Positions 14,649 through 48,854 of a stretch of 49,177 nucleotides of DNA are shown here, piece after piece. Positions within the stretch are counted from its first letter, which is position 1. Each line of letters starts with the position of its first letter. The DNA comes from a virus: positions 1-49,177 of the IMG/VR virus record IMGVR_UViG_3300036799_000080. One strand, given 5' to 3'. The position numbers were made by a program, and so were the translations under genes. Below the pieces are notes generated by a model. It did no database searches, had not been told where the DNA came from, and was given only the letters and a program-made list of their open reading frames with translations.

Positions 14649-14652
14649 CGGA

Positions 14653-17459: not shown

Positions 17460-17525
17460 GCGTTCATAGTGCCAATGGCGCTTGGGAAGTAAGAATGTTT
17501 GCTAGTGGCGTTGGCTACTCGTGGC

Positions 17526-17551: not shown

Positions 17552-17622
17552 CAGGCAGCTGGCAGGATCCGTACGGTCGGAACGAGGATTCGTAAGTCGT
17601 TACGCTGCAATGGGTTACGGGT

Positions 17623-17836: not shown

Positions 17837-17881
17837 CCTGTCGGAGTCAGGCAACCGTCAGTCAGACGTCAATACCGGGCA

Positions 17882-17910
17882 TTGACAACTTCCCCAAGCG
17901 GTGTTAAGTT
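17882..17910 (+). promoter_or_regulatory. Early promoter, family member A
   Basis: TTGACA, a 17-base spacer beginning ACTTCCCCAAG, and TAAGTT followed by GGTG. It is closely related to the promoters at 26929 and 28665 across both boxes and the spacer, so the spacer is conserved as well as the boxes. It drives the small-gene cluster. Confidence 0.75.
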
Positions 17911-17975
17911 GGTGATGTCGGCCATCGTGGGCTGACAGTGGTCAACGGAAGTACCCACTGGACATGGGAGGAAGG

Positions 17976-18110
17976 ATGAACGACAGGAAGAGATGGATGA
18001 GCATGGCGAAGAAGTGCTATGCCGCGCAGTGGATCATCGCTCGAGAGGATGCCACGCGGGAGACGGAAGTGTGGCACTGGATGTACCTCGCGATGCTGAG
18101 GATGGCATGA
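17976..18110 (+). CDS. Small early protein (44 aa)
   Basis: The frame opens at ATG 17976 after a strong GGAGGAAGG ribosome-binding site and encodes a small basic/aromatic helical protein (KRWMSMAKKCYAAQW, then ATRETEVWHWMYLAML). It is the first gene after promoter A and its stop overlaps the next start (ATGA). No family recognised. Confidence 0.7.
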   Translation: MNDRKRWMSMAKKCYAAQWIIAREDATRETEVWHWMYLAMLRMA

Positions 18111-18415
18111 GGCTCGAGATGGCGGGACCTCTGGTTGAAGAGGAGCAGTCACCGAGTTGGCCAGATGATCGCTTGGTGAAGTGCTGTCCGCGCGGGAAGC
18201 ACATCGCGCTGACATGCAAGGACCATCCGACACTGAAGTGGTCAACGAAGAACATTCATGGGAGGACACTGTTCTTCTTTGGCCTCCGGAAGGGATTCGG
18301 ACTGCCAACGGAGGGTGGTTGGGAGAATGAGTTCATCACCGCTGAGGGAGAACTCGTGAAAGAGTGCAACTGTCCGGCATCATCGCTCGTCCACATCCAC
18401 GAGGAGGGGAAGTGA
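18107..18415 (+). CDS. Hypothetical early protein with Cys/His (102 aa)
   Basis: Starts at ATG 18107 within the previous gene's stop (ATGA). A longer upstream frame is only a shadow. The middle has CCPRGKHIALTC and the end CNCPASSLVHIHEEGK, so a metal-binding Cys/His pair is possible; a short FFFGLRKGFG segment lies between. Function unknown. Confidence 0.7.
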   Translation: MRLEMAGPLVEEEQSPSWPDDRLVKCCPRGKHIALTCKDHPTLKWSTKNIHGRTLFFFGLRKGFGLPTEGGWENEFITAEGELVKECNCPASSLVHIHEEGK

Positions 18416-18684
18416 AGAAGGAGATCGCTGTCGAGCGGGCGCGCAAGGCTGAACATGAGCGTGCGCTCGCATTCGTCAAGAGGCCAATCAACTGGCCGCT
18501 GTGGCCACGCCTGCCGATGAAGCGGGGCGAGCAGAACAGGGAACTCGCCACGCTCTACCCGACTGGCCCAAACGAGTACACGTTGTTCCTCACGGATGCA
18601 TTCTCGCCGATCACTGACAAGACGCCGAAGATCGAGTATCCGACCGCTGAGGCGGTCCTCGCTGATGGTTGGAGGGTCGACTGA
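18412..18684 (+). CDS. Hypothetical early protein (90 aa, GTG start)
   Basis: GTG at 18412 overlaps the preceding TGA and follows a GAGGAGGGGAA ribosome site. The N-terminal half is charged and helical (KKEIAVERARKAEHER), followed by NWPLWPRLPMKRGEQNRELATLYP and a small beta segment. No known family. Stop overlaps the next start (TGATG). Confidence 0.7.
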   Translation: MKKEIAVERARKAEHERALAFVKRPINWPLWPRLPMKRGEQNRELATLYPTGPNEYTLFLTDAFSPITDKTPKIEYPTAEAVLADGWRVD

Positions 18685-18884
18685 TGACGAGAGGATCAAT
18701 GAAGCGTGCGCGCTTCTGGGCGATGATTGGTCTCATGGCCATGTCGCTGTACACGATCTGGACGGGAGGAGTGATAGTCTTGATTGATCCCAACTTCATT
18801 CCGACCTCGATAGGGTTCGGGATCATGGCTATCGGCTTCATGGGAGCGACGATCGCTCTCGTGGACATGGAGTTCCGCTGCTGA
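18684..18884 (+). CDS. Two-span membrane protein (66 aa)
   Basis: ATG 18684 overlaps the preceding TGA. Two hydrophobic segments (residues about 11-31 and 39-59) separated by a short polar turn (DPNFIPTS) give a small two-span membrane protein with a basic N-terminus. No family recognised; possible roles include superinfection exclusion, but nothing supports a choice. Confidence 0.65.
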   Translation: MTRGSMKRARFWAMIGLMAMSLYTIWTGGVIVLIDPNFIPTSIGFGIMAIGFMGATIALVDMEFRC

Positions 18885-19054
18885 TGGCAGATACGGATAC
18901 CGTGCAGCGTGCACTGGACTACTATCGGGCGCTCGCAACAGCGGATGATGCGACGCTAGTCGCAGAGGAAATTGAGCGCATCCGCGCCGAAGGAATCATC
19001 GCGGGACTGGAGATTGCTATGCAGATTCTTGACGACGGCGGGAGGATTCGGTGA
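18884..19054 (+). CDS. Small helical early protein (56 aa)
   Basis: ATG 18884 overlaps the previous TGA (TGATG) and the TGA at 19052 overlaps the next GTG (GTGA). The product is acidic and helical (ADDATLVAEEIERIRAEG) with no known motif. It is supported by the unbroken chain of overlaps on both sides. Confidence 0.65.
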   Translation: MADTDTVQRALDYYRALATADDATLVAEEIERIRAEGIIAGLEIAMQILDDGGRIR

Positions 19055-19347
19055 GAGTGGCCATCCTCGACATGCAGACCGGCGCTATCACAGGTGTGGG
19101 CGAGTGCGACGGGAAGTACTATGATGGCATGTATGTGAAGGTCTTCCGCGACGGAGTGAGTGACAAGTCCGCTGCGATGACCCTCACATTCGCTGGCGCG
19201 GTGTTCCCAGAGGGTGAAGTGGCCAAAGCAGTGAGTGCCAAGCTCATGGCACTCCATGCTGAGCGGAAGGCCGCTGATGATCGCTACTACAAGGCCATGT
19301 ATGAGGCGGTCAACCAGTACAAAGCATTCGGAGGGACGAAGCTGTGA
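19051..19347 (+). CDS. Hypothetical early protein (98 aa, GTG start)
   Basis: GTG at 19051 overlaps the preceding stop. The N-terminal half is beta-rich (RVAILDMQTGAITGVG) and the C-terminal half a charged helix (AKLMALHAERKAADDRYYKA). No motif. It ends with GTGA overlapping the next start. Confidence 0.7.
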   Translation: MRVAILDMQTGAITGVGECDGKYYDGMYVKVFRDGVSDKSAAMTLTFAGAVFPEGEVAKAVSAKLMALHAERKAADDRYYKAMYEAVNQYKAFGGTKL

Positions 19348-19547
19348 CAGGTGTGTGCCAATGCGAGCATGCACACCACTTCGAGGGGCGCTGGGAGAAA
19401 GTCCCAGGGCCCCGTCGTGGTACTCGCAATCATGAGTATGGGGAAGTGTTCGATGAGTCGGAACTGATGACGGTGCACACTATGTCGGGTGACTTCAATG
19501 TGTGCAAGTCGTGCAGTGCCGAGTGTTTGAAGGGGCATGTGAAGTGA
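19344..19547 (+). CDS. Small Cys/His protein, possible zinc-binding (67 aa)
   Basis: GTG at 19344. Cysteines and histidines are concentrated (VCQCEHAHH near the start, NVCKSCSAECLKGH near the end), so two CxC/CxxC-type sites could hold one zinc. Basic middle (RRGTRNHEYG). Role unknown; GTGA overlap to the next gene. Confidence 0.7.
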   Translation: MTGVCQCEHAHHFEGRWEKVPGPRRGTRNHEYGEVFDESELMTVHTMSGDFNVCKSCSAECLKGHVK

Positions 19548-19630
19548 GTAAGAAATGGGCGCTGGGTTGCTTCCTATTCTGGGTCGTGGCTCAGGTGGTA
19601 GTGTACATCAGCATCAGGAGTTGCCGATAA
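19544..19630 (+). CDS. Tiny membrane protein (28 aa)
   Basis: GTG 19544 overlaps the previous TGA and the TAA at 19628 overlaps the next ATG. One hydrophobic segment (GCFLFWVVAQVVVYISI) with lysines before it makes a single-span peptide. Its reality rests mainly on the overlaps, so confidence is limited. Confidence 0.5.
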   Translation: MSKKWALGCFLFWVVAQVVVYISIRSCR

Positions 19631-19983
19631 TGGATGCTTTCAAGCACAAAAACACTATGCCAGATGGCAGCACGGTCTACGCTGCGCCTCACGAGTTGAA
19701 CAATGAGGTGCTCATCGTGTTTCCATCTGGCTACTGGGACATGAGTCCGCCAAGCGAGATTCGCATCGCTGATTTCTCAGTCAGCGTGGGAGTGCAGCCG
19801 CTGGCCGATGCTAACCCTGATTCACCTTATGGTGTCATCTGTGAAGACACTTGTGGTCATCAGGGGCTGAGCGAGAAGGAATACGATCGGCAGATGAGCA
19901 AGCCTGATCAGACATGGATCTGCCCACGGTGCCGAGGCTTCGCCTACTGGGATGACGATCGCTATGACGCCAAAAGTAAATAA
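19630..19983 (+). CDS. Zinc-ribbon-like protein (117 aa)
   Basis: ATG at 19630 follows AGGAG. The first 70 residues are beta-rich; near the end CEDTCGHQG and CPRCRGFAYWD give two C-x(2-3)-C knuckles, a likely zinc ribbon. Such small ribbon proteins are common in phage early regions, role unknown. An upstream in-frame extension to 19555 is a shadow of the tiny membrane gene. Confidence 0.7.
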   Translation: MDAFKHKNTMPDGSTVYAAPHELNNEVLIVFPSGYWDMSPPSEIRIADFSVSVGVQPLADANPDSPYGVICEDTCGHQGLSEKEYDRQMSKPDQTWICPRCRGFAYWDDDRYDAKSK

Positions 19984-20227
19984 GTGGCGCATCAACTCTC
20001 CACAAGTCGGCAGTGAGCAAGGTGAACTCTCTGTCGAACTCAACGGCTCGTGGATCGAGTTGTCCACTGATGGCGGGACGGGAGATCCTCAGGATATCAC
20101 CCTCCATGAGGATGAAGCGATCGAACTCATTGGGATCCTATTCAAGGAACGTCCCTTGATTCAACGCCAGATCATCGCGAAGTGCCTTCCGGGCCTCGCC
20201 AAGCATGTGGGAGCGATTCAAATATGA
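19952..20227 (+). CDS. Hypothetical early protein (91 aa)
   Basis: Start ATG 19952 or 19964, overlapping the previous gene by 20-32 bases; neither has a clear ribosome site. The protein has a beta N-terminal half (GELSVELNGSWIELS) and a short acidic/helical C-terminal half. Stop lies in the palindromic repeat at 20212-20233 and overlaps the next start (ATGA). Confidence 0.65.
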   Translation: MTIAMTPKVNKWRINSPQVGSEQGELSVELNGSWIELSTDGGTGDPQDITLHEDEAIELIGILFKERPLIQRQIIAKCLPGLAKHVGAIQI

Positions 20228-20233
20228 ATACCT
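20212..20233 (-). repeat. Dispersed palindrome copy 6 (contains a start codon)
   Basis: GATTCA, AATA, TGAATACCT: the ATG of the next gene is inside the spacer and right arm, so this copy spans the gene junction. The outer left arm deviates from the consensus. Confidence 0.75.
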
Positions 20234-20511
20234 TCTCCACCTTCACCCCGACCACGCTGAAGCCAGAGCCAGGCAAGCGTGTGATGAGCGCGAAGGATCT
20301 GAGGAAGCAACTCCTCGACATCAGCGCGGTGATAGCGGATACGAAGGTGTGCCGCGATCGCGCTATGCGATGGGATGCCTCGCCGACGAAACTCTGGACG
20401 ATCCAGTGCTATGACAATCGAGTGGCGGACCTCATGGATCAGGCCACTGTCACCGCGCGTCTCCTGGCATCCGCGCCAGTGGAGATCGCTGTGGAGCATC
20501 CGGATGTGTGA
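20224..20511 (+). CDS. Hypothetical early protein (95 aa)
   Basis: ATG 20224, inside palindrome copy 6, overlaps the previous TGA. The first 25 residues are Thr/Pro-rich, the rest helical with CRDRAMRWD. The palindrome takes the place of a ribosome-binding site, so translation may depend on coupling. No family. Confidence 0.65.
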   Translation: MNTFSTFTPTTLKPEPGKRVMSAKDLRKQLLDISAVIADTKVCRDRAMRWDASPTKLWTIQCYDNRVADLMDQATVTARLLASAPVEIAVEHPDV

Positions 20512-20695
20512 GATCAATCCCGCTCACACAATCATCTTCCGGTTGGAGTGTTTCACTTCCGATCGTAAGATGACGGCACAGCAATTCGTCACTCAGGTGA
20601 TGACTCGGTTGCTCAAAGCCGAGATGGATCTGAACGCAGATGGCAAGTTTCGCTTTCACATTCACGAGATGCCGTCGGAGGATCTGAATGCCTAG
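20504..20695 (+). CDS. Hypothetical early protein (63 aa)
   Basis: ATG 20504 overlaps the previous gene by eight bases. A short beta segment (TIIFRLECF) then a helical middle (MTAQQFVTQVMTRLLKAEMD) and beta end. No family. The next gene starts eight bases before its stop. Confidence 0.6.
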   Translation: MCEINPAHTIIFRLECFTSDRKMTAQQFVTQVMTRLLKAEMDLNADGKFRFHIHEMPSEDLNA

Positions 20696-21894: not shown

Positions 21895-22527
21895 TTGTTC
21901 ACACCCGCACAACTCGAAGCCCTCGAGGCGGCCATAGACGTCGCCTTCGATGGCACTCCTGATGATGACAAGGAGAGACTCGAGATGGAGGATCAGGCTC
22001 GCAGAGGTCTCGCGAAGGCGAGAGAGATCGCTGACCTGCCCGTTCCGAGCAGCAAGAGATGTCGTCTCATCACGACAGCAACCACAGCGGCTAACATCCT
22101 CATGGGTGTTAAGACTGTGATGAATCAAGATCCCAGTCGCAAGGTCGTCATCCAGCCGCAGGCTGACTACATTCGCCTCTGGGCACAGGTCAACCGGCTC
22201 GAGGCTGAGTACAAGATCATGTATGGGAAGCTCCAGAGAGCCAAGGATGAGATCGACGACCTCACGCACGTGAACGCTGAGTACGTCGATGCTGAGCCGG
22301 AAGTAAAGGCCTCGGATCTCTCACAGGTGCTCGAGCAAGTGCCGGTCAGCACTACAATCGAGCGCAGTGATGCCGACGCTGAGTATGAGATGGATACGAT
22401 CAGCGAGAGCGTGCCGCCCACTCCCTTCGCCGCGCACCTCCTCACGTGTGCGAAGTGCCAGTCCGATCCTCTTCACCCCTGTCCAATCGGAGCGATTCTT
22501 CTCCGAAAGATGGTGAGCCATGCCTGA
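21895..22527 (+). CDS. Hypothetical protein before the AAA+ ATPase (210 aa, TTG start)
   Basis: Start TTG 21895 after a weak AGGG site; the first internal ATG would remove thirty residues. The protein is helical with a coiled-coil-like middle (VNRLEAEYKIMYGKLQRAKDEIDDL) and a Cys-containing C-terminus (CAKCQSDPLHPCPIG). It overlaps the AAA+ gene by eight bases, so it may be a partner or adaptor, but nothing in the sequence shows this. Confidence 0.6.
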   Translation: MFTPAQLEALEAAIDVAFDGTPDDDKERLEMEDQARRGLAKAREIADLPVPSSKRCRLITTATTAANILMGVKTVMNQDPSRKVVIQPQADYIRLWAQVNRLEAEYKIMYGKLQRAKDEIDDLTHVNAEYVDAEPEVKASDLSQVLEQVPVSTTIERSDADAEYEMDTISESVPPTPFAAHLLTCAKCQSDPLHPCPIGAILLRKMVSHA

Positions 22528-23893
22528 CCCGTCCGACGCGTTCTTCAGACAGAGCATCTCCTTCCCTCCGACCGCTGCATCCGTGGTCACGAGGGCGAAG
22601 TACGACGCTCTCGAGGAACGTCTTCAAGCCGCAATCGAGAAGCTCAAGGAGCAAGACGAGTTCATCAAGCAGGTCTCCGCGCAGCCTGCTATCCCTGGCA
22701 TCGTGGTGGCTACTCACGAGGCAATGAGGGAAGGGATGGCACCTTCGGTCGATGTCATCTCGAACGGCAGCCTCGTGAGATTGCCAGTGATGGATCGGGC
22801 CCTCTGGAATGACCTCAGCGAAGGGAGTTACGTCCTCGTGATTGTTGGGAGCGGGATCGTCGCAGAGATTGATCCACTCCCTTCGATGGGCAAGGTGGTG
22901 CATGTCAAGCAGTCACTCGGTCCCACGAAGGTGGAAGTCTCCCTTGGCGGCGAGAGTGCCGTCATCTGGAATATCAATGAGATACCACTCAAAGAGGGTG
23001 ATCGAGTGGTCATTGATCAGACGAACACCTGCATCCTCGATGTGCTGCCACCGCCGCCAGCTCCGACGGCCAAGGCTCAGATCGAGCGCGTGACATGGGA
23101 AGACATCATCGTCCATGAGGACGTACGCGACGCTATCGAGCAGGCTGTCGTGTGGCCGAAGAAGCATGCCTTGATCCTCAAGGCGTATGGCCAGCGTGAG
23201 GCCAAAGGCGTATTGTTCTGGGGCCCTCCGGGATGTGGCAAGACGTTGGTCGCCAAGGTGACGGCCACGCTCCTCGCCGACGATCACGAGGGTGGATTCT
23301 TCAGCGTGCGTGGACCCGAGTTGATGAATCCCTTCGTGGGAGAGACAGAGCGCCTCATCCGAGAGCTCTTCGCAGCTGCTCGGAAGCATCAGCGAGACAC
23401 CGGCGATCGTGCTGTGGTGTTCATAGACGAGGCGGACTCGTGTCTCGGACGCCGCGGACGGCATCTTCACAGTGACATCAGTGTCCCGGCATTCTTGACA
23501 GAGATGGATGGCCTCGATGCTCGCGATCAGCCGCTCGTCATCCTCGCGACCAATCGTCCTCATGATCTCGATGAGGCCATTGTCCGTGAGGGACGAGTCG
23601 ATTCTCGCATCGAGATCAAGAGACCAGAGCTCGCTGATGTCCGCTCGTTGTTCGCGCTGTACATGAACAAGCGTCCGCACGAAGGTGGGGCAATCCATCT
23701 CGCGGCGGAGCTGCTCAGTCGTTCACCTCTCTGGAATGATCGGAGCGGTGCGTTGGTCGCTGCACTGGTCGACAAGATGACCGCACGAGCAATCACTCGT
23801 GATCTTGCAAGTGGAGTTGCCGTCCCCTCGGGCATCACAGCCAATGATGTTCAAGAGGCGATCGTTGCTCACGCGCTGAACCATCAACTGTAG
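22520..23893 (+). CDS. AAA+ ATPase of proteasomal-ATPase (PAN/ARC/Mpa) type (457 aa)
   Basis: This has the domain order of proteasome-associated ATPases: a coiled coil (residues about 27-50), an OB-like beta domain (about 75-180, with a conserved GKVVHVKQSLG turn), then one AAA+ domain. Walker A GPPGCGKT (235-242), pore-loop aromatic in PELMNPFVGE (about 266-276), Walker B VVFIDEAD (299-306), sensor ATN (343-345) and arginine-finger segment REGRVDSRIEI (357-367) are all present. It should unfold protein substrates with ATP. The C-terminus NHQL lacks the penultimate tyrosine of the proteasome-docking signal, and no peptidase or Pup-like gene is visible nearby. Confidence 0.88.
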   Translation: MPDPSDAFFRQSISFPPTAASVVTRAKYDALEERLQAAIEKLKEQDEFIKQVSAQPAIPGIVVATHEAMREGMAPSVDVISNGSLVRLPVMDRALWNDLSEGSYVLVIVGSGIVAEIDPLPSMGKVVHVKQSLGPTKVEVSLGGESAVIWNINEIPLKEGDRVVIDQTNTCILDVLPPPPAPTAKAQIERVTWEDIIVHEDVRDAIEQAVVWPKKHALILKAYGQREAKGVLFWGPPGCGKTLVAKVTATLLADDHEGGFFSVRGPELMNPFVGETERLIRELFAAARKHQRDTGDRAVVFIDEADSCLGRRGRHLHSDISVPAFLTEMDGLDARDQPLVILATNRPHDLDEAIVREGRVDSRIEIKRPELADVRSLFALYMNKRPHEGGAIHLAAELLSRSPLWNDRSGALVAALVDKMTARAITRDLASGVAVPSGITANDVQEAIVAHALNHQL

Positions 23894-32892: not shown

Positions 32893-33122
32893 TTCCCCTC
32901 TACCGCCTCCAGATTGCATTGAAGTCTGGGAGCGGTTTCGAGCTTTTATGCACCATGAGTGAGCAGGCACTGGTCGACGAGATCACGGCGGCCAAGAGGG
33001 AAGGTCGCTTCGCTCGGGTGTCCTCTCCTCAGTCCGGTGCAGAGCTCGCCGCATCCTCGTTCGACCCCAAAGACCTCTCTGGCTATATGCACATGCCAGT
33101 ACAACGCATCCAAAGGGCATGA
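32883..33122 (+). CDS. Small protein before the ParB-methyltransferase (79 aa, TTG start)
   Basis: TTG 32883 lies inside palindrome copy 9; an ATG at 32955 is the alternative. The N-terminal 24 residues (LYRLQIALKSGSGFELL) look like a beta strand that fits a real protein, and the rest is helical. No family. Its stop overlaps the ParB-methyltransferase start. Confidence 0.5.
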   Translation: MDNFPLYRLQIALKSGSGFELLCTMSEQALVDEITAAKREGRFARVSSPQSGAELAASSFDPKDLSGYMHMPVQRIQRA

Positions 33123-34372
33123 TGACACAACTCCTAACCTTAGACATCGCTGACGTCATCGTCACTCGCAGACGAGAGCGAGAGGAACTAGGTGACCTCG
33201 ACTCACTGGCGCAGTCCCTGATTCAGTTCGGGCAGCTCCAGCCAGTCGTAGTCGATGACAACAACGAGCTGATTGCCGGCTTCCGAAGGTTATCGGCCAC
33301 GCAGCTCAACGGCTCATCAACCATCCTCGCGATCAGGAAGAATGACATCGACGAGGTGGTTGCGAAAGAGATGGAACTGGAGGAGAACTTCCAGCGCAAG
33401 GACATGACGACGAAGGAGAGGATCCGTGGTCTCGCGGAGTTGGATAGGCTCCGCCGCATCAAGGATCCAAACTGGACGCAGCAGCAGACCGCCGCTCTGG
33501 CTGGGGCGAAGACGAGCCAACGTGACGTCTCGATCGCCGTCCAACTCGACAAGGCGATGGAGCTCTTCCCTGAACTCGGGCAGGCGAAGTCGATCAATCA
33601 AGCAAGGCGCATGCTCGAGGCGAAGATCGCTAACGTCACGCGAGTGCTCGACGTCCAGAACTCTCCGAAAGACTTCAGCGACATCGAGGCGAAGTTCCTC
33701 CTTGGTGATAGCGTCGAGGTCATCAAGGGCCTCCCGGACGAGTCCTTCCATGTCATCATCACTGATCCTCCCTTCGGCGTGGACTACGAGGTTCGCACCG
33801 AGAACTCGATCGTCGGGCAGACGTCCGGCTACGAGGATGATCGCGGGAAGTACATGAACATTCTGTCGATGATCCCTGACATGTACCGAGTGCTGAAGCC
33901 AGACGCATTCTGCATCTTCTTTCTCGGCATGTCTTGGTACGAGCATGTCAAGGGCGAGTTCCGCAAAGCTGGGTTCACCGTAGACGAAATCCCCATCATC
34001 TGGGACCGGAGCGATGGACGCACCTTCACGAACAGGCCTGACAGGTGGTTCACCAAGGGCTACGACATCGCCCTTCACTGCATCAAGGGAAATCCCCGAC
34101 TCGCTATTCAGGGCAAGAGCAACATTATTCGAGTGCCTCCTGTCCCATCAGCGGAACGAGATATTCTTGTTGAGAGGCCAGTGGAACTTTACGCTGAGCT
34201 CATCCGACGCACAACTATTGAGGGTGAGATCGTCGCCGACTTCTTCGGCGGTGGCGGAGGATGTCCCGCAGCAGCGTCGTCCCTCAAGAGGGGATGGCTC
34301 GCGGTAGAGAAGGACATCGAGCGGAGAGCCAAGGGCATCACGAAGGTCAAGGCTCACACGCCGGAGAAGTAG
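33119..34372 (+). CDS. ParB-domain DNA methyltransferase fusion (417 aa)
   Basis: Residues 1-110 match ParB/RepB/Spo0J N-domains (LIAGFRRLSA at 51-60; ELEENFQRKDM at 86-96), residues about 115-175 are helix-turn-helix-like, and residues about 185-400 are a beta-class DNA methyltransferase: motif IV TDPPFG (215-220) then motif I-type DFFGGGGG (about 373-380). It probably methylates adenine or cytosine at a specific site, with the ParB part giving DNA targeting. Function of the fusion is inference. Confidence 0.88.
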   Translation: MMTQLLTLDIADVIVTRRREREELGDLDSLAQSLIQFGQLQPVVVDDNNELIAGFRRLSATQLNGSSTILAIRKNDIDEVVAKEMELEENFQRKDMTTKERIRGLAELDRLRRIKDPNWTQQQTAALAGAKTSQRDVSIAVQLDKAMELFPELGQAKSINQARRMLEAKIANVTRVLDVQNSPKDFSDIEAKFLLGDSVEVIKGLPDESFHVIITDPPFGVDYEVRTENSIVGQTSGYEDDRGKYMNILSMIPDMYRVLKPDAFCIFFLGMSWYEHVKGEFRKAGFTVDEIPIIWDRSDGRTFTNRPDRWFTKGYDIALHCIKGNPRLAIQGKSNIIRVPPVPSAERDILVERPVELYAELIRRTTIEGEIVADFFGGGGGCPAAASSLKRGWLAVEKDIERRAKGITKVKAHTPEK

Positions 34373-39419: not shown

Positions 39420-42400
39420 CGATTGGGCATGGCTTTGTCAACCTCACTCGCAAAGACGTTAGCCTGGCGAGCGGTCTCAATCATCATGACTTGATACTGC
39501 TTGATCATAGCCCTTCGATCCGATGCAGAGATCGCTTCGCCAGGCATGTCTTTCACATCTTGTAGGGCTCGTCTGAAGTTCGCGATGTCTTGACGAGTCT
39601 TAGTGAACACTCCTAACAACGCATAGTCCGCTTGATTACTCGTCATGTAGGGCAACAACCGAGTGGGATCCTCACCGACAAGATGATTGATAGTTGCTCC
39701 GACGGTCTGCACCTGTGCCGCTCGATCGTAGAACCTACGAATTGGAGCGACGTTCATAGCAGGGTAAGCTGCGAAGACCTTACTGACGATCGGAAGCTCC
39801 TCTTTAGCCGGAGGATACCCTTTTGTCTCAGCTTCTACCGCCTGAGAGATGGCGAGCATCCCGTCTTGTCCCAGCATGCCACCGACACTGTTCATTATGT
39901 AGTCAAGTCCTGCTGGAGTTGTAGCGTTCTTAATGAGGTCGGGAGTATTTGGCCCGACGAGGGGGGATATCTTCTGGGCGACGGTCCTCGATACCCAGCT
40001 GGCACGGTCCTCCCCTTGATGTTCAGGGGCGAGATTTTCGTCTCCTTGAGGGATGAGGCTCCCGCCGAGAGGGATGTTTCGATTGAACTGGAGACCGTAG
40101 TACAGTACTCCCGCCGTTGGAAGGATATTGAAGGAGATGTCCTTAGCCATAGCAGCACCCGCTGCAGACATCTGGCTAGGATCATTCCCGTACGCCTTAT
40201 CAAGATACGCTTCCATCGAGGTCCCAAAGACCTGCCCGTCCACGATTGGCTTAGGGATCTTTACGATGTCGCCTTTCTGGAGACCCATCTTCGGGGCGTC
40301 GACGGGTGAGCGCATGAACCAGTACTTTTCCCCTGACGGGGTCTTACGGAGGTCGTTGATCTCTTGATCGTCTTTATTCATGAACCAGAAGTACATGGAT
40401 GGCAGAGTTATCCCAACGAATGCCTTCGACAAGTACTTCGCAGCGGCCGCCTTTCGTCCCTCTTCAGGGACACGGAAGGGATTAATGCCGGCACGGAAGG
40501 TTGCCTGGTCAAGGCCCTGAATTGCGGGGTTGAGGAACATGGAAGCCCTATCGAGCCCTCGCATTGCAGTGAAACCACCCCGCTGCTGAAAATTCGCTGT
40601 GACGTGCTTGGCTGCATAAAGCGCGTCCAAGGGAGATGCGCCGTGATTTCTAGCTCTGAGATACTCCCCGACCCTTGCGGACTCACTGAAGGGGACGATT
40701 AGTGTCTTCCACGCTTCGACAGGTTTGAATTGCTTGAGCTGGTTCACCGCTGTGCTAAGGGGCCCACCACCGCCACCTTTGACAGCCGCAATTGCAGTCT
40801 TCACATTTGCATAGTCATGTGACTGGAGGGTCGAGTGTCCACCACCCGCAGCAATGAACCCTTGATATTCAGGCGTGTGCCTGACAATGTTCATCCAGCC
40901 AATGAACTGGTCAACTCCCGGTCGGAAGCCGTACTGACTATTCAGCATGGCCTGCCAGCCGTCGATGAAGCTCTGCTTCGCAACGAAGTAGGGATTCAAG
41001 ACGACGCCCTTCTTGGCCATATTAGCTGGCATTCCGAGGACCTTCCACATACCCTCGAGCTCGTCAGGGGTCAAGGAGGCGAGGGACTGAGCGACGTGTT
41101 CGTCCACCTTGTACGCCCGCATAACGCCTTCACGATAGACCGTCATGATGTTGCTACGAGGGTCGAGAGACTTCGGGTCGAAAGCAGAAACGAGCGACTC
41201 AGCGTCCCCCTGAGAAAGGCCCTTGATTTCCTGCTTGAGCGCGTCGATTCGAAGCTGCTGGTCTCCGGAGATCGTCTGCTTGCGACGCTCGATCTGCTTG
41301 AGCATGTAGTCGGGCTTTCCTGCGGCTTCCCACAGATCGACGAAGCGACTCTTGATTGAGTTCAGCTCCGCTGCACGGTAGATCTGCGGCACCATACTGG
41401 CTGTGGTCTCAGCGGGGTTGTAGACCTTTGAGCCCACGCCAGTCTTGCGGCCCTTGACAGGGTTCGGTTGAATGAGAATCTTCTTCGTCTTAGGATCGCG
41501 GACGACCTTCGATGGCCCTCCGTCGGGATCGAAGACCTTCTTCAGCCCAGCGTAGAACTCCTCCATGCTAAACTTTCCCACTGCATCCGGTGAGAGGATC
41601 CCCTCGTTGGCGAGGACCTTCGTCATAGCAAGGTCGAACTGCCTCATGGCATCGGCAGCCTGGTGGTAGTTCTCTGGCGCTGAGTTGAAGACGAGATCCG
41701 ATGTTACTGGATCCAGCGGCACCGTTCGGAGACCTCTGCCTTCGATGGAAGTACGAGCGGTCATGAGCTTGCCGAGACCCTTGAGATCTCCCTCCACCAT
41801 CTCTACGATCTCTCGGTAGGATGGTACTCCGAGGTCCTGCACGTTGCCAGCATAGTCAACGTACGCTGGCCGATCCATCAGGGCACTCTCTGACATGCTG
41901 ATCCATCTGCCGAACATGGCAGCCAGCTTCGCTGGATTCTTGTGGGCGGCCAGTGATTCAGCTCCTCCTTTGGATCCAGTGAGGACGTTGACCGCTACGT
42001 CAATGCCGTGAGAACGCCTCACGATGCCTTGATACCACTCTCTCGCGCGCTCTCGCCACGATTGAGATGGATCTTCGGTGTCCTCGTAGTTGACGATCTT
42101 CTCAGCGGCTTTTCGGGAGCCTAGCCATTGATCAGAGGGCTCCGCCTTCACTTCCACTGCCCTGGCCTTGGCCCGCATCCTAGCGACTGCAAGGCCTCCT
42201 GCAAGACCGATGGCTGTCCACATGAGAGCATTCGTCATGCGGTCAGGGCCATCACTATCCTTGTTCTCTCCAGGTGCTGTGGCGAATCCAAAGGCGAATC
42301 CAGCTGTGCCTTCAATCGCCTTCCTCTCGATCGTAGGGATGACGCCGTTAGTGACCTTATCTCTGAAGGCACGCTCCTCGAGCGCTTTGTTCATGCGCTT

Positions 42401-45400
42401 CTGAAGTTCGGCGATCCGCTGAGGATCTTCTTCGACCTTCTGCATGCCTTCGAGGTCAGCGATGTGGGAGTTCAGCTCATCGCCTGTCATCTTCCGCGGC
42501 GATATGCTCCGCAGGCGAGCCACTTCTGGAGGTGTCGTTGGCCCTTGCTCTGGCCTCGCTCCACCCTTCGCAATCTCGTCAGCGGGGTTACCGAAGCGTG
42601 CCGGGGCCGCAGGTTCCACTGCCGGCTTGTTAGCATTCAGCGCAGCGTTGCGGCGAGCATACTCATTATGCACAGCATCGAAATCGCTCTGTACGATGGC
42701 ACGCTCGGGAGAGTCCTTAGGCAACGACTCAACGGCGTCAGTGAGCTTGTCATCAACCTTCCCAAGCTCCTTCTCCGTCATATCTTCAAGGGCCTTCGCG
42801 TTTTCGATAGAGCGAAGCATGGTCTTCTGTGGGGGCGGGGCAGGTGTGGGCGACACCGTGCCTTCAGTCCCAGCCGCTGGGGTTTCCCCCACAGAAGGTG
42901 CTTGAGCCGCAGGTGCACTGAAATCTTCAGCGAATACGCGTGCAAGCCATTGATCATAGCTCTCACCAGGTCGCGTCTTGCCCAACTCACCTAGCGAGTC
43001 AGACATCGCCTGAATAGCCTTGTCAGCCTTCGCTGCATCACCGCTAGCACCCGATGTGCGGGCTTTGGCCTCTGCTGCCCGAGCAGTGGCTATCGCCTCA
43101 CGCTGGGCGCTAGTAACACGAGTCGTCGCTCCCGGTGCCTGCGCTGGAGGAGCCTTCACTGCCGGTGGTCCGCCTTCGGCCTCTGCGGGAGTGAAGTCCT
43201 CAATCAGTGACTGGAGTTCGGAAGCATGCTGGTCGGGCGGAAGTTGCTTATCGTAGAGGGACTTGATCTCCTCTGCGAAAGCCTTCTGAGATTCGGAGTC
43301 TCGCAATCCCCCTGCCTCATGGACTTGCCGCACAGCATCCATCGCGTCAGGAGGGAATGGATCAGTGACATCATACGGCTTGGCGGTCGCCGCTGCTGGA
43401 GCTGCTGCTGGCGGAGGGCTCGTGTTGATCCTCTCTCTCGCAGCATCAATGAGGGCCTGCTCCTCAGCATTGCGCCCAGGGATACCCTGCTTCGCCTTCG
43501 CTTCGAGCTTACGAGATGTAAGCTGGGCCTTCCCTTCGACAGACAGTGCATCGCCCATAGTATCATGAACAGCACCACTGAACGATCCAGTCTGATCGCC
43601 GTACTGCTTGACCGAGTTTTGCTCTACATGATCGAGAATGAGCTGCGCCTTGTCTTTAGGCACAATGGCTACTATCTCATCTCCACCATAGCGGAACAAG
43701 CGAGGCTGCACGCCATGAGCTTCATGTGCAGCGAGGATTGCATCTCTGCCATCAGTGAGAAGCTTATCCCCTACTGCATACCCCTGACCGTCATTGAGAG
43801 CCTTCTGCCCATTAGCATCGAAGAAGATGTATGATAGGCCAGAGTTCTTATCCGCTGCCGGCGCTGCACGATCGAGTGCTCCTCTATTGCCGATGTTCAG
43901 CTGTGCATCGGTCTCTGCCAGCCGCCGTGCGTCGTCTCGCTCACCACGAAGGGCATGGAGCTGCTCCTCCATCGCGACGAGTTGTTGCTGGACCTCGGGA
44001 GGGTTGCCTGTCGTGGGATCACTTACGGGCGTCCCAGGTGGCGCACCCACCGAGGTATTCACATTTGAATTCCTTCGTTGTTCACGGTAGTCATCGTAGA
44101 TCTTCCTCTTCGCCGTAGGCGCGAGTTCCTTCCACTCAGTGTCAGGATTCATGACCTGCCACTGTGATTGGGCCTGCGCCTTATCGAGGCGATCACGACG
44201 CTTTGCCGCCTGCTTCACAGCGTTCTGCGCCTTGACTTGGTCGAGCTGCGCCTGCCGTGCGGGTGTCAGGGGAGCCTCGGGAGGAGCCTCGACAACAGGC
44301 TCTCCGGGCTTCGCCTTTCCATGTGGAATGGCTCCGAAGAGGGCATCTGCTCCAATGCCGATGGCGAGGTTCTTGATCTTGTTAGCGACATTCGTCGAGC
44401 GAATGCGCTCCGCTTCTTCAGGCGTAGCACCCTCCGGGACATCGACACCTGGCGCGGCGAACGAGCTGACAGCAGTAATGGGAAGCCCTGTGATGACGTT
44501 GGATGCTACGCGCTGCACGAGTGATCCCTTATGCGCAGCTTCGATAGCCATAGCGATGCGCGTGGAGGGAGCAATCCTGATGAGGGTCTTACCAATCCCC
44601 TCAGCCACGCCACCAGCGGCGGGAGCCGATCCGACTACGTTGCCCGCAATCTCTCCCACAGTGCCAGCAGTGCCTCGAGGATTGAGGTCCTCGTTGATGA
44701 GGGCCCGATTCTCCTCGATGTAGTTCTGGAGGTCCTTGGCCCCGACGAGAGCCGCCGCATTCCCGGCTAGCTCTACTGGGAACTGGACACCTTCCGCTGC
44801 GCCAGCAGCTGTACCGCGGATGAAGTTCTCCAACATGCTTCGATTGCCAGGCTCCTTGCCGGCGATCTGCATGTCGAGCGCACTTACGAGCTTATCGAGC
44901 CGCGCCTTATGTCCAGCATTCGCAGGCTGGATTGCTTTCAGTCGATCCCTCGTAATGATCATAGACTGGAGCTCAGCAGCCTGCCTTCCCTTGCCAGTAT
45001 CAAGCCCAAGGTCGTGAATGGGAAGTTCCCCTGGCGCGCCCTCTTGCGAGATCGCTGGCTCAGGTGGAGCCCCCATGTTCAGGAAGGGATTGTCCGCTGA
45101 TGTGTCAGGAGGAGCGGCCACAGGCGCAGGCGGAACTGTATCCGCTGGCGCTCCCATAGTCATGAAAGGATTCGTCACGGTTGCTGAGCCCTGTTGAATC
45201 GGAGCGGGTGCTGCCACTGGCGGTGGTGCACCTCGGCTCGCCACAGCTGCCGCTGGCGGCATAGTATCCCCGAGCATCGCTACATGCCCAGGATCCATCT
45301 CTCCCATAGGAGTGAATCCGTACTTCGAGGCATTCGCTTGCAGCCACTTGAATGCTTCCGGCTTGCCATTGAAGTCGATGGCGTTGCCGGGAGTGTGATC

Positions 45401-45811
45401 ACTGGTGAGTGTCCAAGTGGCTACAGGACCTCGATCGTTGCGCCCTTTCTGGAACAACATCTCCTGCCGTTCTTGCGATCGCCTCGTCTCGGCCACGGTG
45501 AGGTGGACGCCTTCGTCCTTCGCCGCAGCCATGAGCTTTCGCGCACTATCAGCTACGGTGGGATTGAGTGCGCCAAGATCACTCCTCGCCGCGGTGTCAG
45601 GAGTGAACGTCCGCATAGCGAGAACGCGCTTCTCATAGTCAGCGAACGACTCACCTGGCAGGCGATTGGTCTCCTGATCGAGTCGATGAGTTGGGACATG
45701 CCCAGCGCTATCTCTCCGCTCTGTATCCACCACAGGGCGGCCATGCTTGACGTACCCACGCTTCGCATCTTCCGGGTTGACACCTGGGATGTCGAAGAAA
45801 GGATTAGTCAC
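39416..45811 (-). CDS. Large virion protein with M15 peptidase-like and GGDEF-like domains (2131 aa)
   Basis: GTG 45811 overlaps the upstream stop. Residues about 84-180 are an M15/VanY-like L-alanyl-D-glutamate peptidase: SDHTPGNAIDF (H139, D146) and MDPGHVAM (H176). Short NPF motifs (NPFFDIP, NPFMTMGAP, NPFLNMGAP) repeat in the first 260 residues. Residues about 655-780 are GGDEF-like: SYIFFDANGQKALND (D665), YAVGDKLL and RYGGDEIVAIVP (GGDE 709-712). A hydrophobic segment near 1192-1215 may cross a membrane. It is the last gene of the late unit, in the place of ejection proteins, so it is probably injected with the genome. Confidence 0.85.
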   Translation of the reverse strand: MTNPFFDIPGVNPEDAKRGYVKHGRPVVDTERRDSAGHVPTHRLDQETNRLPGESFADYEKRVLAMRTFTPDTAARSDLGALNPTVADSARKLMAAAKDEGVHLTVAETRRSQERQEMLFQKGRNDRGPVATWTLTSDHTPGNAIDFNGKPEAFKWLQANASKYGFTPMGEMDPGHVAMLGDTMPPAAAVASRGAPPPVAAPAPIQQGSATVTNPFMTMGAPADTVPPAPVAAPPDTSADNPFLNMGAPPEPAISQEGAPGELPIHDLGLDTGKGRQAAELQSMIITRDRLKAIQPANAGHKARLDKLVSALDMQIAGKEPGNRSMLENFIRGTAAGAAEGVQFPVELAGNAAALVGAKDLQNYIEENRALINEDLNPRGTAGTVGEIAGNVVGSAPAAGGVAEGIGKTLIRIAPSTRIAMAIEAAHKGSLVQRVASNVITGLPITAVSSFAAPGVDVPEGATPEEAERIRSTNVANKIKNLAIGIGADALFGAIPHGKAKPGEPVVEAPPEAPLTPARQAQLDQVKAQNAVKQAAKRRDRLDKAQAQSQWQVMNPDTEWKELAPTAKRKIYDDYREQRRNSNVNTSVGAPPGTPVSDPTTGNPPEVQQQLVAMEEQLHALRGERDDARRLAETDAQLNIGNRGALDRAAPAADKNSGLSYIFFDANGQKALNDGQGYAVGDKLLTDGRDAILAAHEAHGVQPRLFRYGGDEIVAIVPKDKAQLILDHVEQNSVKQYGDQTGSFSGAVHDTMGDALSVEGKAQLTSRKLEAKAKQGIPGRNAEEQALIDAARERINTSPPPAAAPAAATAKPYDVTDPFPPDAMDAVRQVHEAGGLRDSESQKAFAEEIKSLYDKQLPPDQHASELQSLIEDFTPAEAEGGPPAVKAPPAQAPGATTRVTSAQREAIATARAAEAKARTSGASGDAAKADKAIQAMSDSLGELGKTRPGESYDQWLARVFAEDFSAPAAQAPSVGETPAAGTEGTVSPTPAPPPQKTMLRSIENAKALEDMTEKELGKVDDKLTDAVESLPKDSPERAIVQSDFDAVHNEYARRNAALNANKPAVEPAAPARFGNPADEIAKGGARPEQGPTTPPEVARLRSISPRKMTGDELNSHIADLEGMQKVEEDPQRIAELQKRMNKALEERAFRDKVTNGVIPTIERKAIEGTAGFAFGFATAPGENKDSDGPDRMTNALMWTAIGLAGGLAVARMRAKARAVEVKAEPSDQWLGSRKAAEKIVNYEDTEDPSQSWRERAREWYQGIVRRSHGIDVAVNVLTGSKGGAESLAAHKNPAKLAAMFGRWISMSESALMDRPAYVDYAGNVQDLGVPSYREIVEMVEGDLKGLGKLMTARTSIEGRGLRTVPLDPVTSDLVFNSAPENYHQAADAMRQFDLAMTKVLANEGILSPDAVGKFSMEEFYAGLKKVFDPDGGPSKVVRDPKTKKILIQPNPVKGRKTGVGSKVYNPAETTASMVPQIYRAAELNSIKSRFVDLWEAAGKPDYMLKQIERRKQTISGDQQLRIDALKQEIKGLSQGDAESLVSAFDPKSLDPRSNIMTVYREGVMRAYKVDEHVAQSLASLTPDELEGMWKVLGMPANMAKKGVVLNPYFVAKQSFIDGWQAMLNSQYGFRPGVDQFIGWMNIVRHTPEYQGFIAAGGGHSTLQSHDYANVKTAIAAVKGGGGGPLSTAVNQLKQFKPVEAWKTLIVPFSESARVGEYLRARNHGASPLDALYAAKHVTANFQQRGGFTAMRGLDRASMFLNPAIQGLDQATFRAGINPFRVPEEGRKAAAAKYLSKAFVGITLPSMYFWFMNKDDQEINDLRKTPSGEKYWFMRSPVDAPKMGLQKGDIVKIPKPIVDGQVFGTSMEAYLDKAYGNDPSQMSAAGAAMAKDISFNILPTAGVLYYGLQFNRNIPLGGSLIPQGDENLAPEHQGEDRASWVSRTVAQKISPLVGPNTPDLIKNATTPAGLDYIMNSVGGMLGQDGMLAISQAVEAETKGYPPAKEELPIVSKVFAAYPAMNVAPIRRFYDRAAQVQTVGATINHLVGEDPTRLLPYMTSNQADYALLGVFTKTRQDIANFRRALQDVKDMPGEAISASDRRAMIKQYQVMMIETARQANVFASEVDKAMPNR
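44053..44074 (+). repeat. Dispersed palindrome copy 11 (inside the large virion gene)
   Basis: AGGTATTCA, CATT, TGAATTCCT, inside the coding sequence of the 2131-residue gene. Confidence 0.75.
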
Positions 45812-47172
45812 CGGGAGCCCTCAATAATGGCGTCGTACTGAGCGCGAGTGATCTTCTTCTTATCAAGGGCTTCCTTGAGTTGGGTTAGGTTGCCCTTCTT
45901 GGTCTTGAGGAGCTGGATGGCACTCGTCACTACGGGATCAGCCGCAGGCGGTGCTGCTGCCGCGGGTGCAGCCGCTTGTCCGGCTCTTCCCTGCCCAGCA
46001 GGAGACCTTCCTCCAGTAGATCCTCCGGCAGGTGCTGCAGATCTTCCTGTAGGCGGCGCAGCAGTTCTTGCTCCACCAGCTGCTGGACCAGCCCCTTGCG
46101 ACGAGATGGAGTCTGCTGCAGCGAGGAGGTCTGCGAGATTTCCAGGGACTTGTCCACTGGCGAGCGACCCCTGCGCACCACGAAAAGCTGTGGCCGTTTG
46201 CTCGAGGGCATTGTACTGGTCGAGCGCACCCTTGACAATCGGCGACTGAGCCATCGAAGGGTTGTCGAGAGCATAGAGTACGGCTGGATTAGCTTTCGTG
46301 ATGTTCGCTTGCGCCTTTCGCACGTTGTCGAGGGCGGTAGTGACCTTTCCGAACCACTGCATGCTGGTGTTCTGGCCAGCCGTTGACTTCGCTGCCTCAG
46401 CATGGATGCGACCAGTCTTCGCCTCGTACTCTGCGAGATCTTGCTTCTTCTGTGCGATGAGGGCATTCTCAGTGGCTCGGGCGAAATACTGTCGAGTGTA
46501 CTTCACCTGTTCAGGCGTGAGAGATCCTAGTCCATTCTGTGCGCGCTCAGCGACATACGTTGAGTATGCATTCTCACCGATCTGCTGAGCATTGTCAGGA
46601 TCAATGCGCCCACCTGACTTGATCATCTGCCCAGCGATGTAGCGCTCCCCAACGCCACTGAGGTATGGATCGAGCTGGCTGACTTCCTTCAGCTGTCGAT
46701 CAGATGCACCTGGCAACCCAATGGCTTCATTCTGCTGATCGCCGAGATTCTCCCCGTTCATGTAACGGGTGAGCAGGTCAGCCCTCTTCGTCTCGAGGTT
46801 GGCCCCAGCGACTTGCGCACCCTCCGTGGCAGCTTGCACTTTGGTCGTGAAGCCGAGGTTCTTCTTCTGCTCATCCGACAGCGTGGCCATCTGGTCAGGG
46901 TTGTCGAGATAGTGCTGGCGCTGTTCTGACTTCGATGGGATGACAGTGGGAGCCGGCAATCCCGTAGCCGTGAGTGCGCTCTGCAAGTCCTTCGATCCGA
47001 CAGCTCCGGATTGGAAGAGCTGCCCAATGAGCCCCGCTTGGGCTTGCGCCTCAGCGGTCTTCTTGTGAGCCTCTTCTCGAGCAATCTGTGCGTTCTGTCT
47101 CTGTAGATCAATACCCTTCTGGACACCCTGACCGAGGTAGTCCCAGAAGCCTGGTACCTGTTCAACTGGCAT
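45808..47172 (-). CDS. Ejection/internal virion-type protein (454 aa)
   Basis: Almost entirely helical, Ala/Gln-rich, with coiled-coil-like parts (residues about 18-55 and 210-285) and a Gly/Ala/Pro-rich linker near 360-410. This is typical of podovirus internal proteins ejected with DNA. ATG 47172; its stop overlaps the large virion gene. Role by composition and order. Confidence 0.7.
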   Translation of the reverse strand: MPVEQVPGFWDYLGQGVQKGIDLQRQNAQIAREEAHKKTAEAQAQAGLIGQLFQSGAVGSKDLQSALTATGLPAPTVIPSKSEQRQHYLDNPDQMATLSDEQKKNLGFTTKVQAATEGAQVAGANLETKRADLLTRYMNGENLGDQQNEAIGLPGASDRQLKEVSQLDPYLSGVGERYIAGQMIKSGGRIDPDNAQQIGENAYSTYVAERAQNGLGSLTPEQVKYTRQYFARATENALIAQKKQDLAEYEAKTGRIHAEAAKSTAGQNTSMQWFGKVTTALDNVRKAQANITKANPAVLYALDNPSMAQSPIVKGALDQYNALEQTATAFRGAQGSLASGQVPGNLADLLAAADSISSQGAGPAAGGARTAAPPTGRSAAPAGGSTGGRSPAGQGRAGQAAAPAAAAPPAADPVVTSAIQLLKTKKGNLTQLKEALDKKKITRAQYDAIIEGSR

Positions 47173-47180: not shown

Positions 47181-48023
47181 TCAGCTAAAGAGTTTCTTAC
47201 CGACCTGAGCGCCGACAGCCGATCCTATCGGACCCATCATGCTGCCGATGGCCATACCTCCCAGCTGACCAGCAAACGATCCGAAGCCTGGAGTCTGCTG
47301 CACGGTATCTGGCCCGACGCCGAGAGATGCCTGCTGTCCGAGGAGCTGGAGGAAGTTGTTCGCGTTCTGCTGATTGACTCCAAGCTGGCCGCCATAGATC
47401 ATGGCATTGCGAGCCGCGTCCAACTGCGCCTGTGATTGCCCAAGCTGAGTTGCCTGGCCAGAGTTGAACTGCTGTGCCTGCGAAGCCATCTGCTGCGCTT
47501 GGAGCCCCTGATTGTTGCGCTGCAAGATGTTGTTCATGAAGCTGATGTCAGCCCCTTGATTCGCTTGCTGACGCTGCAATTCAGATTGCATTCCCTGAGT
47601 CGCGTAACTCGCGAGGGTGGCTTGCTGATTCCCTAGCGTTCGATTCAGATTTGAGCCGATCGAGTTGCCGAGCCCTGAGCCTGTCAGTGATCCGGTGGCT
47701 TCCTTCCCCGCGGCTGCGGCATCAGTGCGAGCTTGCTGGAAGGATGGACTGAGCTGAGACATCATGTTCTTGAAGAACGCACTGTTGGCGCCTCCAAGCT
47801 GATCCACGCTCTGAATGTCCCTGACACCACTTCGGCTGATGTCAGTACCGGAGTTGAAGGTCGTGCTGACTGGCTGACCCCCCATGATCTGCACTCTCCC
47901 CGGAGCATTCGGGGCGGTGGCAGTTCCTGGCCCGGTAGGGTTCATGATGTAGTCCTGAACCTGCTTCCGGAACTGCTGCGTTTGATAGGGAGTCGTGTCG
48001 ATGGTCTTGCTCGAGCCACCCAT
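47181..48023 (-). CDS. Ejection/internal virion-type protein, Gln-rich (280 aa)
   Basis: Gln, Ala, Asn and Gly-rich helical protein (QGMQSELQRQQANQGAD, QAQQMASQAQQF) with a Gly/Met-rich C-terminus (MAIGSMMGPIGSAVGAQVG) that may insert in a membrane, as in P22 gp7-type ejection proteins. ATG 48023 overlaps the GNAT gene stop (TAATG). Confidence 0.7.
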   Translation of the reverse strand: MGGSSKTIDTTPYQTQQFRKQVQDYIMNPTGPGTATAPNAPGRVQIMGGQPVSTTFNSGTDISRSGVRDIQSVDQLGGANSAFFKNMMSQLSPSFQQARTDAAAAGKEATGSLTGSGLGNSIGSNLNRTLGNQQATLASYATQGMQSELQRQQANQGADISFMNNILQRNNQGLQAQQMASQAQQFNSGQATQLGQSQAQLDAARNAMIYGGQLGVNQQNANNFLQLLGQQASLGVGPDTVQQTPGFGSFAGQLGGMAIGSMMGPIGSAVGAQVGKKLFS

Positions 48024-48484
48024 TACAGTACCTCCGAAGCGAGAAGACCAAAGATCATCTGGTCGATTCTGTTGCCTTTCATGAGAAGCGACTGGCGCTT
48101 ACGGCCCTCTTCCCTGAACCCTATGCGCTTGAGCAATCTCGAAGTGGCATGGAAGATCGACGGAATTGTAGCCGTCATCCTATGACACTCCGGAAAGTTC
48201 GTGAAGAACCACCATATCACCCGCTGGCATATCTCCACTTTGTTCGCCAGGTCGCGATCGAAGAACATGCAGTGTGCCTGCGCGTCCACGATCTGCACCA
48301 TGTCTGTCCAGTAGATTATGCCAACGATCTCGCCATCCTTCTGCACTTCGAGCCAGAAGCTATCCTTGGCCGTGAGGATGGCAAACCAACTGTTGAAGTC
48401 GCCACGAGTGAAATCATTCCACAAGGTGCGATACTTGTTCATCTCATTCCAGAGCCACTTCGCCTTCTCGAGAGTGAACTGCAT
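48023..48484 (-). CDS. GNAT-family acetyltransferase (153 aa from ATG 48484)
   Basis: The fold is suggested by EIVGIIYWTDMV (strand), AHCMFFDRDLANKVEICQRVIWWFFTNFP and the end LLKRIGFREEGRKRQSLL, matching a GNAT core with late strand and helix. I choose ATG 48484 with GAGG upstream; in-frame GTG starts at 48511, 48532 and 48580 would add 9, 16 or 32 residues. It lies among virion genes, so it may be packaged and act early in infection, which is inference. Confidence 0.75.
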   Translation of the reverse strand: MQFTLEKAKWLWNEMNKYRTLWNDFTRGDFNSWFAILTAKDSFWLEVQKDGEIVGIIYWTDMVQIVDAQAHCMFFDRDLANKVEICQRVIWWFFTNFPECHRMTATIPSIFHATSRLLKRIGFREEGRKRQSLLMKGNRIDQMIFGLLASEVL

Positions 48485-48536
48485 CTCGAATACCTCGTAG
48501 GGCTGAAGCACAATGACAGGCTCAGCAGCAACGAGG

Positions 48537-48854
48537 TTAGGCAACTTCGAGATCTCCGTCGACGATGAGGACGAGATCACCAGTCACCGAGCCAAACGCC
48601 TGCATGGCTTCGCCAGGCTCAATGGCGTAGATGCAGTAGTGATCGAGCACCGATCCTGCCGCGATGGGGTAGGCATCGAACACCCGAGTGCCAGCTGCAT
48701 CAAGCCCGATGGAGAGGGTGAGGTTTACTGGCCCCGCAGTGGGGTTACTTACATGGATATGACGAACTACCGCACGAATCCCAGCTGGTGCAGTGTACAC
48801 CGTTGCAGCGGCGTTGGTGAGTTGAGCGGGGCCGTACAGTCTGCGGAGTCCCAT
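48537..48854 (-). CDS. Small virion-type protein (105 aa)
   Basis: A beta-rich protein (VYTAPAGIRAVVRHIHVSNPT, LVLIVDGDLEVA) typical of small phage structural or head/tail proteins, with no named family. ATG 48854 is eight bases from the collagen-like gene stop. Confidence 0.6.
   Translation of the reverse strand: MGLRRLYGPAQLTNAAATVYTAPAGIRAVVRHIHVSNPTAGPVNLTLSIGLDAAGTRVFDAYPIAAGSVLDHYCIYAIEPGEAMQAFGSVTGDLVLIVDGDLEVA

Follow-up and report, generated by a model that had tools for sequence, protein, structure and literature searches.

Genome organization and the ejection-type protein

The window, that is the whole stretch of DNA that was analysed, is an entire virus record of 49,177 bases, and its minus strand encodes the packaging, head and tail functions of a phage with a short tail (Table 1). 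Collagen-like or fibre-like ORFs run off both contig ends (2-328 and 48863-49177, minus strand). The genome is probably nearly complete and broken within a repetitive fibre gene, and a simple joining of the contig ends would break the frame of that gene. Two genes of the plus strand may also be mentioned: one encodes a 457-aa AAA ATPase (22520-23893), weakly similar to the proteasomal ATPase OB domain and unusual in a phage, and the other a DNA methyltransferase fused to a ParB-like nuclease/partition domain (33119-34372).

At the far end of the window the genes encoding a GNAT acetyltransferase-like protein and proteins of 280, 454 and 2131 aa overlap or nearly touch each other, the GTG start of the last one overlapping the stop of the preceding gene by 4 bases. 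The order tail protein, GNAT acetyltransferase, "internal virion protein", hypothetical protein, homologue of the 2131-aa protein and tail fibre is common to a spring-water podovirus and three pelagiphages. By synteny, the 2131-aa gene is the last large gene of a gp14-gp15-gp16-type cluster, as in MW202898 and the pelagiphages. Moreover, the C-terminal core of its product presents 22-25% identity to pelagiphage and other podovirus proteins (tblastn, E 3e-23 to 6e-38). This shared gene order, along with the homologous C-terminal part, makes the protein the positional counterpart of T7 gp16, which is the largest of the ejection proteins. Neither Pfam and PHROGs nor a tblastn against phage records gave a match to T7 gp16 itself, and the homologues that were obtained are proteins without names in the same gene position.

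The N-terminal half of the protein is not common to those podovirus homologues and carries two domains. The first is the peptidase-like domain that a sequence-only reading of this DNA had noticed in the protein; it is an M15/VanY domain with H139, D146 and H176 arranged as is usual for this motif. The second is a GGDEF domain flanked by Pro/Ala-rich linkers. Between the two lies a weakly hydrophobic stretch (435-453), which is too weak to prove topology. The C-terminal core contains LPD38, the "large polyvalent protein associated domain 38". A single phage ORF lying among late/virion genes joins the unrelated M15, GGDEF and LPD38 domains, and both its position and its composition are those of a polyvalent protein. 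Synteny agrees with the earlier view of a virion, likely ejected, protein. Taken together with the domain make-up, it suggests that the 2131-aa protein is probably an ejected internal virion protein, likely to be delivered during infection.

Table 1. Positions of the features discussed, in window coordinates
Feature	Position	Strand	Evidence
SU10-type adaptor	2781-3479	minus	short-tailed phage gene set
Capsid	6601-7506	minus	short-tailed phage gene set
SU10-type portal	9347-11413	minus	short-tailed phage gene set
Terminase	12840-14471	minus	short-tailed phage gene set
Probable gp16-like ejection/polyvalent protein P0001, 2131 aa	39416..45811	minus	GTG start; gp16-like by synteny
Putative C-terminal ejection core, residues 1234-2116	39464..42112	minus	tblastn and alignment A1
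LPD38, residues 1845-1996	39824..40279	minus	Pfam PF18857, 1.6e-10
GGDEF domain, residues 618-777	43481..43960	minus	Pfam, PDB sequence search, AlphaFold2, fold search, phage profile
RYGGDE signature loop, residues 707-712	43676..43693	minus	alignment
GDKLL, residues 681-685: base-binding D682	43757..43771	minus	alignment
FFDANGQKALND, residues 663-674: metal-binding D665, K670, base-binding N673	43790..43825	minus	alignment
Predicted stalk helix ahead of the GGDEF fold, residues 613-633	43913..43975	minus	helix H2-22 of the AlphaFold2 model
M15/VanY peptidoglycan peptidase domain, residues 82-167	45311..45568	minus	Pfam PF02557, 3.7e-8; PHROG endolysin families
454-aa gene directly upstream of the 2131-aa gene, gp15 position	45808..47172	minus	synteny only
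280-aa gene, internal virion (gp14-like) protein position	47181..48023	minus	synteny only
GNAT acetyltransferase-like gene before the ejection genes	48023..48580	minus	phrog_1249, 2.1e-9, and synteny

Identity and extent of the GGDEF domain

The GGDEF-like domain announced by the sequence-only reading inside this protein is a true GGDEF (diguanylate cyclase) domain. The Pfam GGDEF model (PF00990), whose cut-off is 23.8 bits, matched the whole protein with 26.1 bits and the six-frame translated genome with 30.5 bits. A profile built from 11 phage GGDEF domains of lineage A (see below), with the window left out, recognized the window domain among the 390 window ORFs with 100.9 bits (E=1.2e-30), and 2000 shuffles of the domain reached at most 8.9 bits against the same profile. 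In the PDB sequence search diguanylate cyclases came out on top (DgcB, 1.5e-5). The AlphaFold2 model of the domain, obtained with a 74-row alignment, had a pLDDT of 87.6 and a pTM of 0.78, with block means of 93-97 over the first 120 residues and a weak C-terminal helix region. All of its best 50 PDB fold matches were GGDEF structures (top 8.4e-10), with moderate TM-scores of 0.44-0.64. Structure prediction, which had been proposed as a check, returned this fold and no unrelated one. The profile, shuffle and fold tests rule out a chance motif, and contamination or a host gene is ruled out as the domain lies within a phage ORF of 2131 aa in a record that also holds portal, capsid and terminase.

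The three motifs lie inside 43480-43860, where they had first been read. The extent of about 655-780 then given to the domain includes them and is too short: with the stalk helix, which is also seen in other GGDEF enzymes, the domain runs from about residue 612 to 780.

Active site and probable product

GGDEF enzymes convert two GTP into c-di-GMP and two pyrophosphates. By alignment, the window domain has the active-site residues D665, K670, N673, D674, G681-D682, R707 and G709-G710-D711-E712, and its metal, base and phosphate residues are intact. The start motif DxLTGLxNR reads DAQLNIGNR, with D, N and R kept and LTG lost (QLN). In addition, Tyr replaces the His of GHxxGD and Ile replaces the Phe of GGDEF. 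D665, N673, G710, D711 and E712 are kept across all complete phage domains compared, pairs of which are often less than 35% identical, and D682 is conserved in every one except L209; since the later family members were found by the patterns FD[AVC]NNF[KG] or [LVP]TG[LI][AG]NR[RA]A, conservation in the columns that these cover is partly ascertained, GGDE and D682 lying outside them. The script used for the active-site alignment required GDE[FI], and in a listing made without this requirement every complete domain has GDEF (or GEEF). The RxxD I-site is absent from the window domain and from 22 of the 23 phage domains, against 32 of the 69 cellular ones, so that by its sequence the window domain has no feedback I-site.

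These features bear on whether the fold could be a non-catalytic module binding nucleotides or c-di-GMP, acting for instance as a sponge or, by sensing GTP, as a gate for ejection. Binding without catalysis is common among bacterial GGDEF domains, and the window domain lies on a long branch and has lost LTG, the His of GHxxGD and the Phe of GGDEF. Non-catalytic domains, however, are usually without the acidic GGDEF residues, whereas no complete member of the family has lost D665, D711 or E712. Moreover, such sensors usually bind c-di-GMP at the I-site, which the window domain lacks, and the pairing with a pyrophosphatase in three relatives, described below, fits catalysis. We therefore regard a pure binder as unlikely.

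Concerning the product, hybrid-product (Hypr) GGDEF enzymes have Ser where the base-binding Asp stands, and the window domain has D682 there. The GGDEF motif, nearly absent from mCpol/OptS (PMC12657218), is represented in the window by GGDE. As Asn is the guanine-reading residue (PMC12657218), N673 and D682 point to guanine, which would favour c-di-GMP over a hybrid product. In lineage A an exchange of K670 for Gly is paired with one of D674 for Lys in L056, L061, L148, L149, L151, L154, L157 and L158, which include most of the giant proteins of this lineage, whereas the window retains K and D. This paired exchange may alter the chemistry or the substrate, which would then differ across the family. 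It could be taken, together with the synthesis of 2',3'-c-di-AMP by OptS/mCpol, a GGDEF relative (PMC12657218), as a sign of another product (cGAMP, c-di-AMP or a linear one) aimed at cyclic-nucleotide defence systems. To this we give little credence, as the guanine-reading N673 and D682 are kept in all phage domains but one and the window retains K670 and D674. The residues present suggest that the window domain is likely to be catalytic, with c-di-GMP as its probable product.

A phage family with two lineages

The family was opened with the peptide pattern FRYGGDE in viral contigs. Of its 26 matches, 24 were dismissed and L030 and L040 alone proved to be true GGDEF domains, L030 presenting 39% identity to the window domain (83.6 bits). 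On the window domain the lineage-A profile scored 100.9 bits, against 51.0 for a profile of 69 cellular cyclases and 17.6 for the lineage-B profile. The tree groups the window with lineage A (SH-aLRT 91) and sets lineage B apart (SH-aLRT 99). The window is the most divergent copy of its lineage (end branch 2.34), and as its long branch stands beside another one the profile contrast is trusted above the tree. By sequence comparison, the window domain belongs to a phage-specific lineage and is not an ordinary host cyclase.

Lineage A includes standalone GGDEF proteins of about 170-195 aa (L030, L055, L056 and L157) and nine giants, namely L061 (2462 aa), L148, L149, L151 (3355), L153 (3184), L154 (at least 4350), L158 (2474), L211 (845) and L212 (4009). 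Lineage B contains six giants (L201, L203, L204 of 3263 aa, L205 of 3864, L206, and L207 of 2569) together with standalone proteins from Yuavirus and Vojvodinavirus. The giant ORF L209 is unplaced. L201 (cut by a contig end), L211 and L212 were assigned by sequence, outside the tree. The scans of viral contigs gave at least 16 giant ORFs with the domain besides the window, some of them ended by a contig edge. What had been presented as a single case thus has many counterparts among phages.

Outside GGDEF, no significant similarity of the window protein to the other giants was found by all-against-all BLASTP; by profile, LPD38 is common to the window protein and L204. Single-protein scans of viral contigs gave no match, and the C-terminal alignment of the ejection protein was too divergent for scanning them. 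The scan of genome contigs returned mainly cellular cyclases, which were taken as the comparison set. No embedded GGDEF copy was found in a cultured phage among 50,697 phage records at the E-values applied. Matches labelled "Bacteriophage sp." or Acinetobacter "phage" were ordinary bacterial cyclases on bacterial-looking contigs and were excluded as virion examples. Similarly, the INPHARED records MT835472, MT835688, MT835770, CAKLQF020000044 and others are labelled as phage and contain bacterial GGDEF sensor proteins, CAKLQF020000044 also holding housekeeping genes; these are probably mislabelled bacterial contigs.

Recurrence in giant and ejection-type proteins

A second clear case is L061, whose 2462-aa protein is encoded after genes for tail tubes A and B, for a member of the gp14 family (above the Pfam T7_gp14 cut-off) and for an endolysin-type protein. 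Both phrog_376 (T7-type tail-tube-B) and phrog_418 (internal virion, gp14-like) occur on five contigs of GGDEF giants. Lineage-B giants gave no match to either of them, and their other domains (DarB-like helicase/methylase, ADP-ribosyltransferase, RadC or LPD38) are those usual in polyvalent proteins.

L144, L145 and L146, with 40-63% identity to the L061 protein, align on either side of its GGDEF domain and are without it, and the Bordetella BPP-1 and Caulobacter phage homologues are also without it in the aligned pieces. As these relatives match both flanks and not the domain, GGDEF sits in a variable slot. The L144 relative (9017-20638, 3874 aa) has other, longer inserts, as though the slot were freely exchanged. 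A variable slot with relatives that do without the domain, as in the L061 protein family, the long branch of the window copy and its Pro/Ala-rich linkers would suit a decaying passenger, recombined into a tolerant hypervariable region and functionless in this phage. We consider this very improbable, as the frame is open, all catalytic residues are kept despite strong divergence elsewhere, and 16 giant ORFs besides this one maintain the family.

In L201, L203 and L205 (records G008, G009 and G011) an inorganic pyrophosphatase (PF18823) shares one giant ORF with GGDEF, at a short distance and in varying order, once before and once after it. Two pyrophosphates are released per c-di-GMP, so the pairing is suggestive of an active enzyme whose by-product the pyrophosphatase would clear.

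The standalone relatives are early or middle genes and not virion genes, as in L055, where the GGDEF gene adjoins DNA polymerase/helicase and thymidylate synthase genes, or in the records where it adjoins an antirestriction gene, and such proteins would be useful in the cell without any delivery. The window protein could likewise be an active cyclase made late in the cell, before packaging, which alters the host late and not at entry. This would leave the fusion to giant ejection-type proteins in both phage lineages hard to explain, and we think it improbable, somewhat more so than a non-catalytic binder.

Proposed role at infection

The reading that we prefer, with a probability of about one half, is that the phage packs and ejects a gp16-like protein with an active diguanylate cyclase, and that a burst of c-di-GMP at entry favours the phage. 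The protein, which we infer to be packed in the virion, would exit the capsid through the tail on infection. Its N-terminal M15 peptidase would open the peptidoglycan, acting in the periplasm, and its C-terminal core would help to build the DNA passage. In T7, gp16 exits the head and becomes hexameric, with a periplasmic N-terminal hydrolase and a C-terminal part that is presumed to be cytoplasmic (PMC8954989). By this analogy the GGDEF domain, placed past the weakly hydrophobic stretch, may end up in the cytoplasm. Oligomerising copies would pair two GGDEF domains into the dimer required for catalysis, and these would turn two GTP into c-di-GMP before phage gene expression and with no product feedback. 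As the I-site is lacking, a small number of copies could suffice, with synthesis continuing until substrate or degradation sets a limit. The burst would shift host behaviour or disturb nucleotide-based defence to the benefit of the phage; our guess is less motility, a surface altered against superinfection, or interference with such defence.

The wider proposal is possible and more tentative: tailed phages of several unrelated kinds may use a phage-evolved, feedback-free cyclic-dinucleotide synthase as swappable cargo of ejection proteins, sometimes with its own pyrophosphatase, giving a messenger pulse before phage gene expression. Phages are known to remove host nucleotide signals, by degradation or by sequestration. 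A particle with a synthase of its own would do the opposite and set the signal state of the host at time zero. If this is true, infecting phages may bring a finished signalling enzyme with them from the start, which would act on motility, on the structures of the cell surface, on biofilm and perhaps on cyclic-nucleotide defence.

Comparison with known systems

A literature search for GGDEF or diguanylate cyclase domains joined with ejection or internal virion proteins found no report among the papers covered. The idea of GGDEF signalling by polyvalent proteins is nevertheless not new. In the passages of Iyer et al. (2017, PMC5512222) that deal with it, GGDEF is reported in polyvalent proteins as "not very widespread", with a prediction of nucleotide signalling, the one example named there being WP_004096050.1 of an Acetonema longum prophage. 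The window protein agrees with that description, as its domain is one of several in a very large phage protein presumed to be injected, for which a role in nucleotide signalling is proposed, and it has the polyvalent-associated LPD38. It differs from what those passages describe in being a gp16-like podovirus ejection protein with M15, with a defined lineage and 16 more giant ORFs. As far as could be checked, the following are additions to the 2017 account: the phage-specific lineages, their repeated insertion in gp16-type ejection proteins, the lack of a feedback site and the pairing with a pyrophosphatase. As the domain is small, separable and open to a simple assay, the prediction made then can be tested directly.

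The standalone GGDEF proteins of Yuavirus and Vojvodinavirus (phrog_5594; Bordetella phages CN1 and LK3, Pseudomonas phages AN14 and WP2) are also short phage-specific domains with catalytic residues and no I-site, but they are separate proteins of 152-156 aa in lineage B (AGDEF/SGDEF), whereas the window belongs to lineage A. In the three records read the gene (L050:5944-6402, L051:4932-5402, L052:2932-3396) is followed by an antirestriction gene. Phage LK3, a close relative of CN1, encodes a GGDEF protein, and Bordetella LK3 lysogens form more biofilm, yet they are also more motile, so that this correlation, which is no more than that, is mixed (PMC8471281).

With the bacterial diguanylate cyclases PleD, WspR, DgcB and SadC the window domain shares the fold, the metal, base and phosphate residues and the stalk helix. 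It differs from them in having no sensor domain and no I-site, in an identity of about 25% and in its place in a virion-type protein. T7 gp16, a protein of 1318 aa that is not known to hold a GGDEF domain, is likewise encoded by the large last gene of an ejection cluster and has an N-terminal peptidoglycan hydrolase; this is a transglycosylase in T7 and an M15 peptidase in the window, and no sequence similarity between the two proteins was detected. Finally, mCpol/OptS of the Panoptes defence is a related palm-fold cyclic-nucleotide synthase acting in the conflict between phage and host, but it acts on the side of the host and is nearly without the GGDEF motif (PMC12657218), whereas the window domain retains this motif and belongs to the phage.
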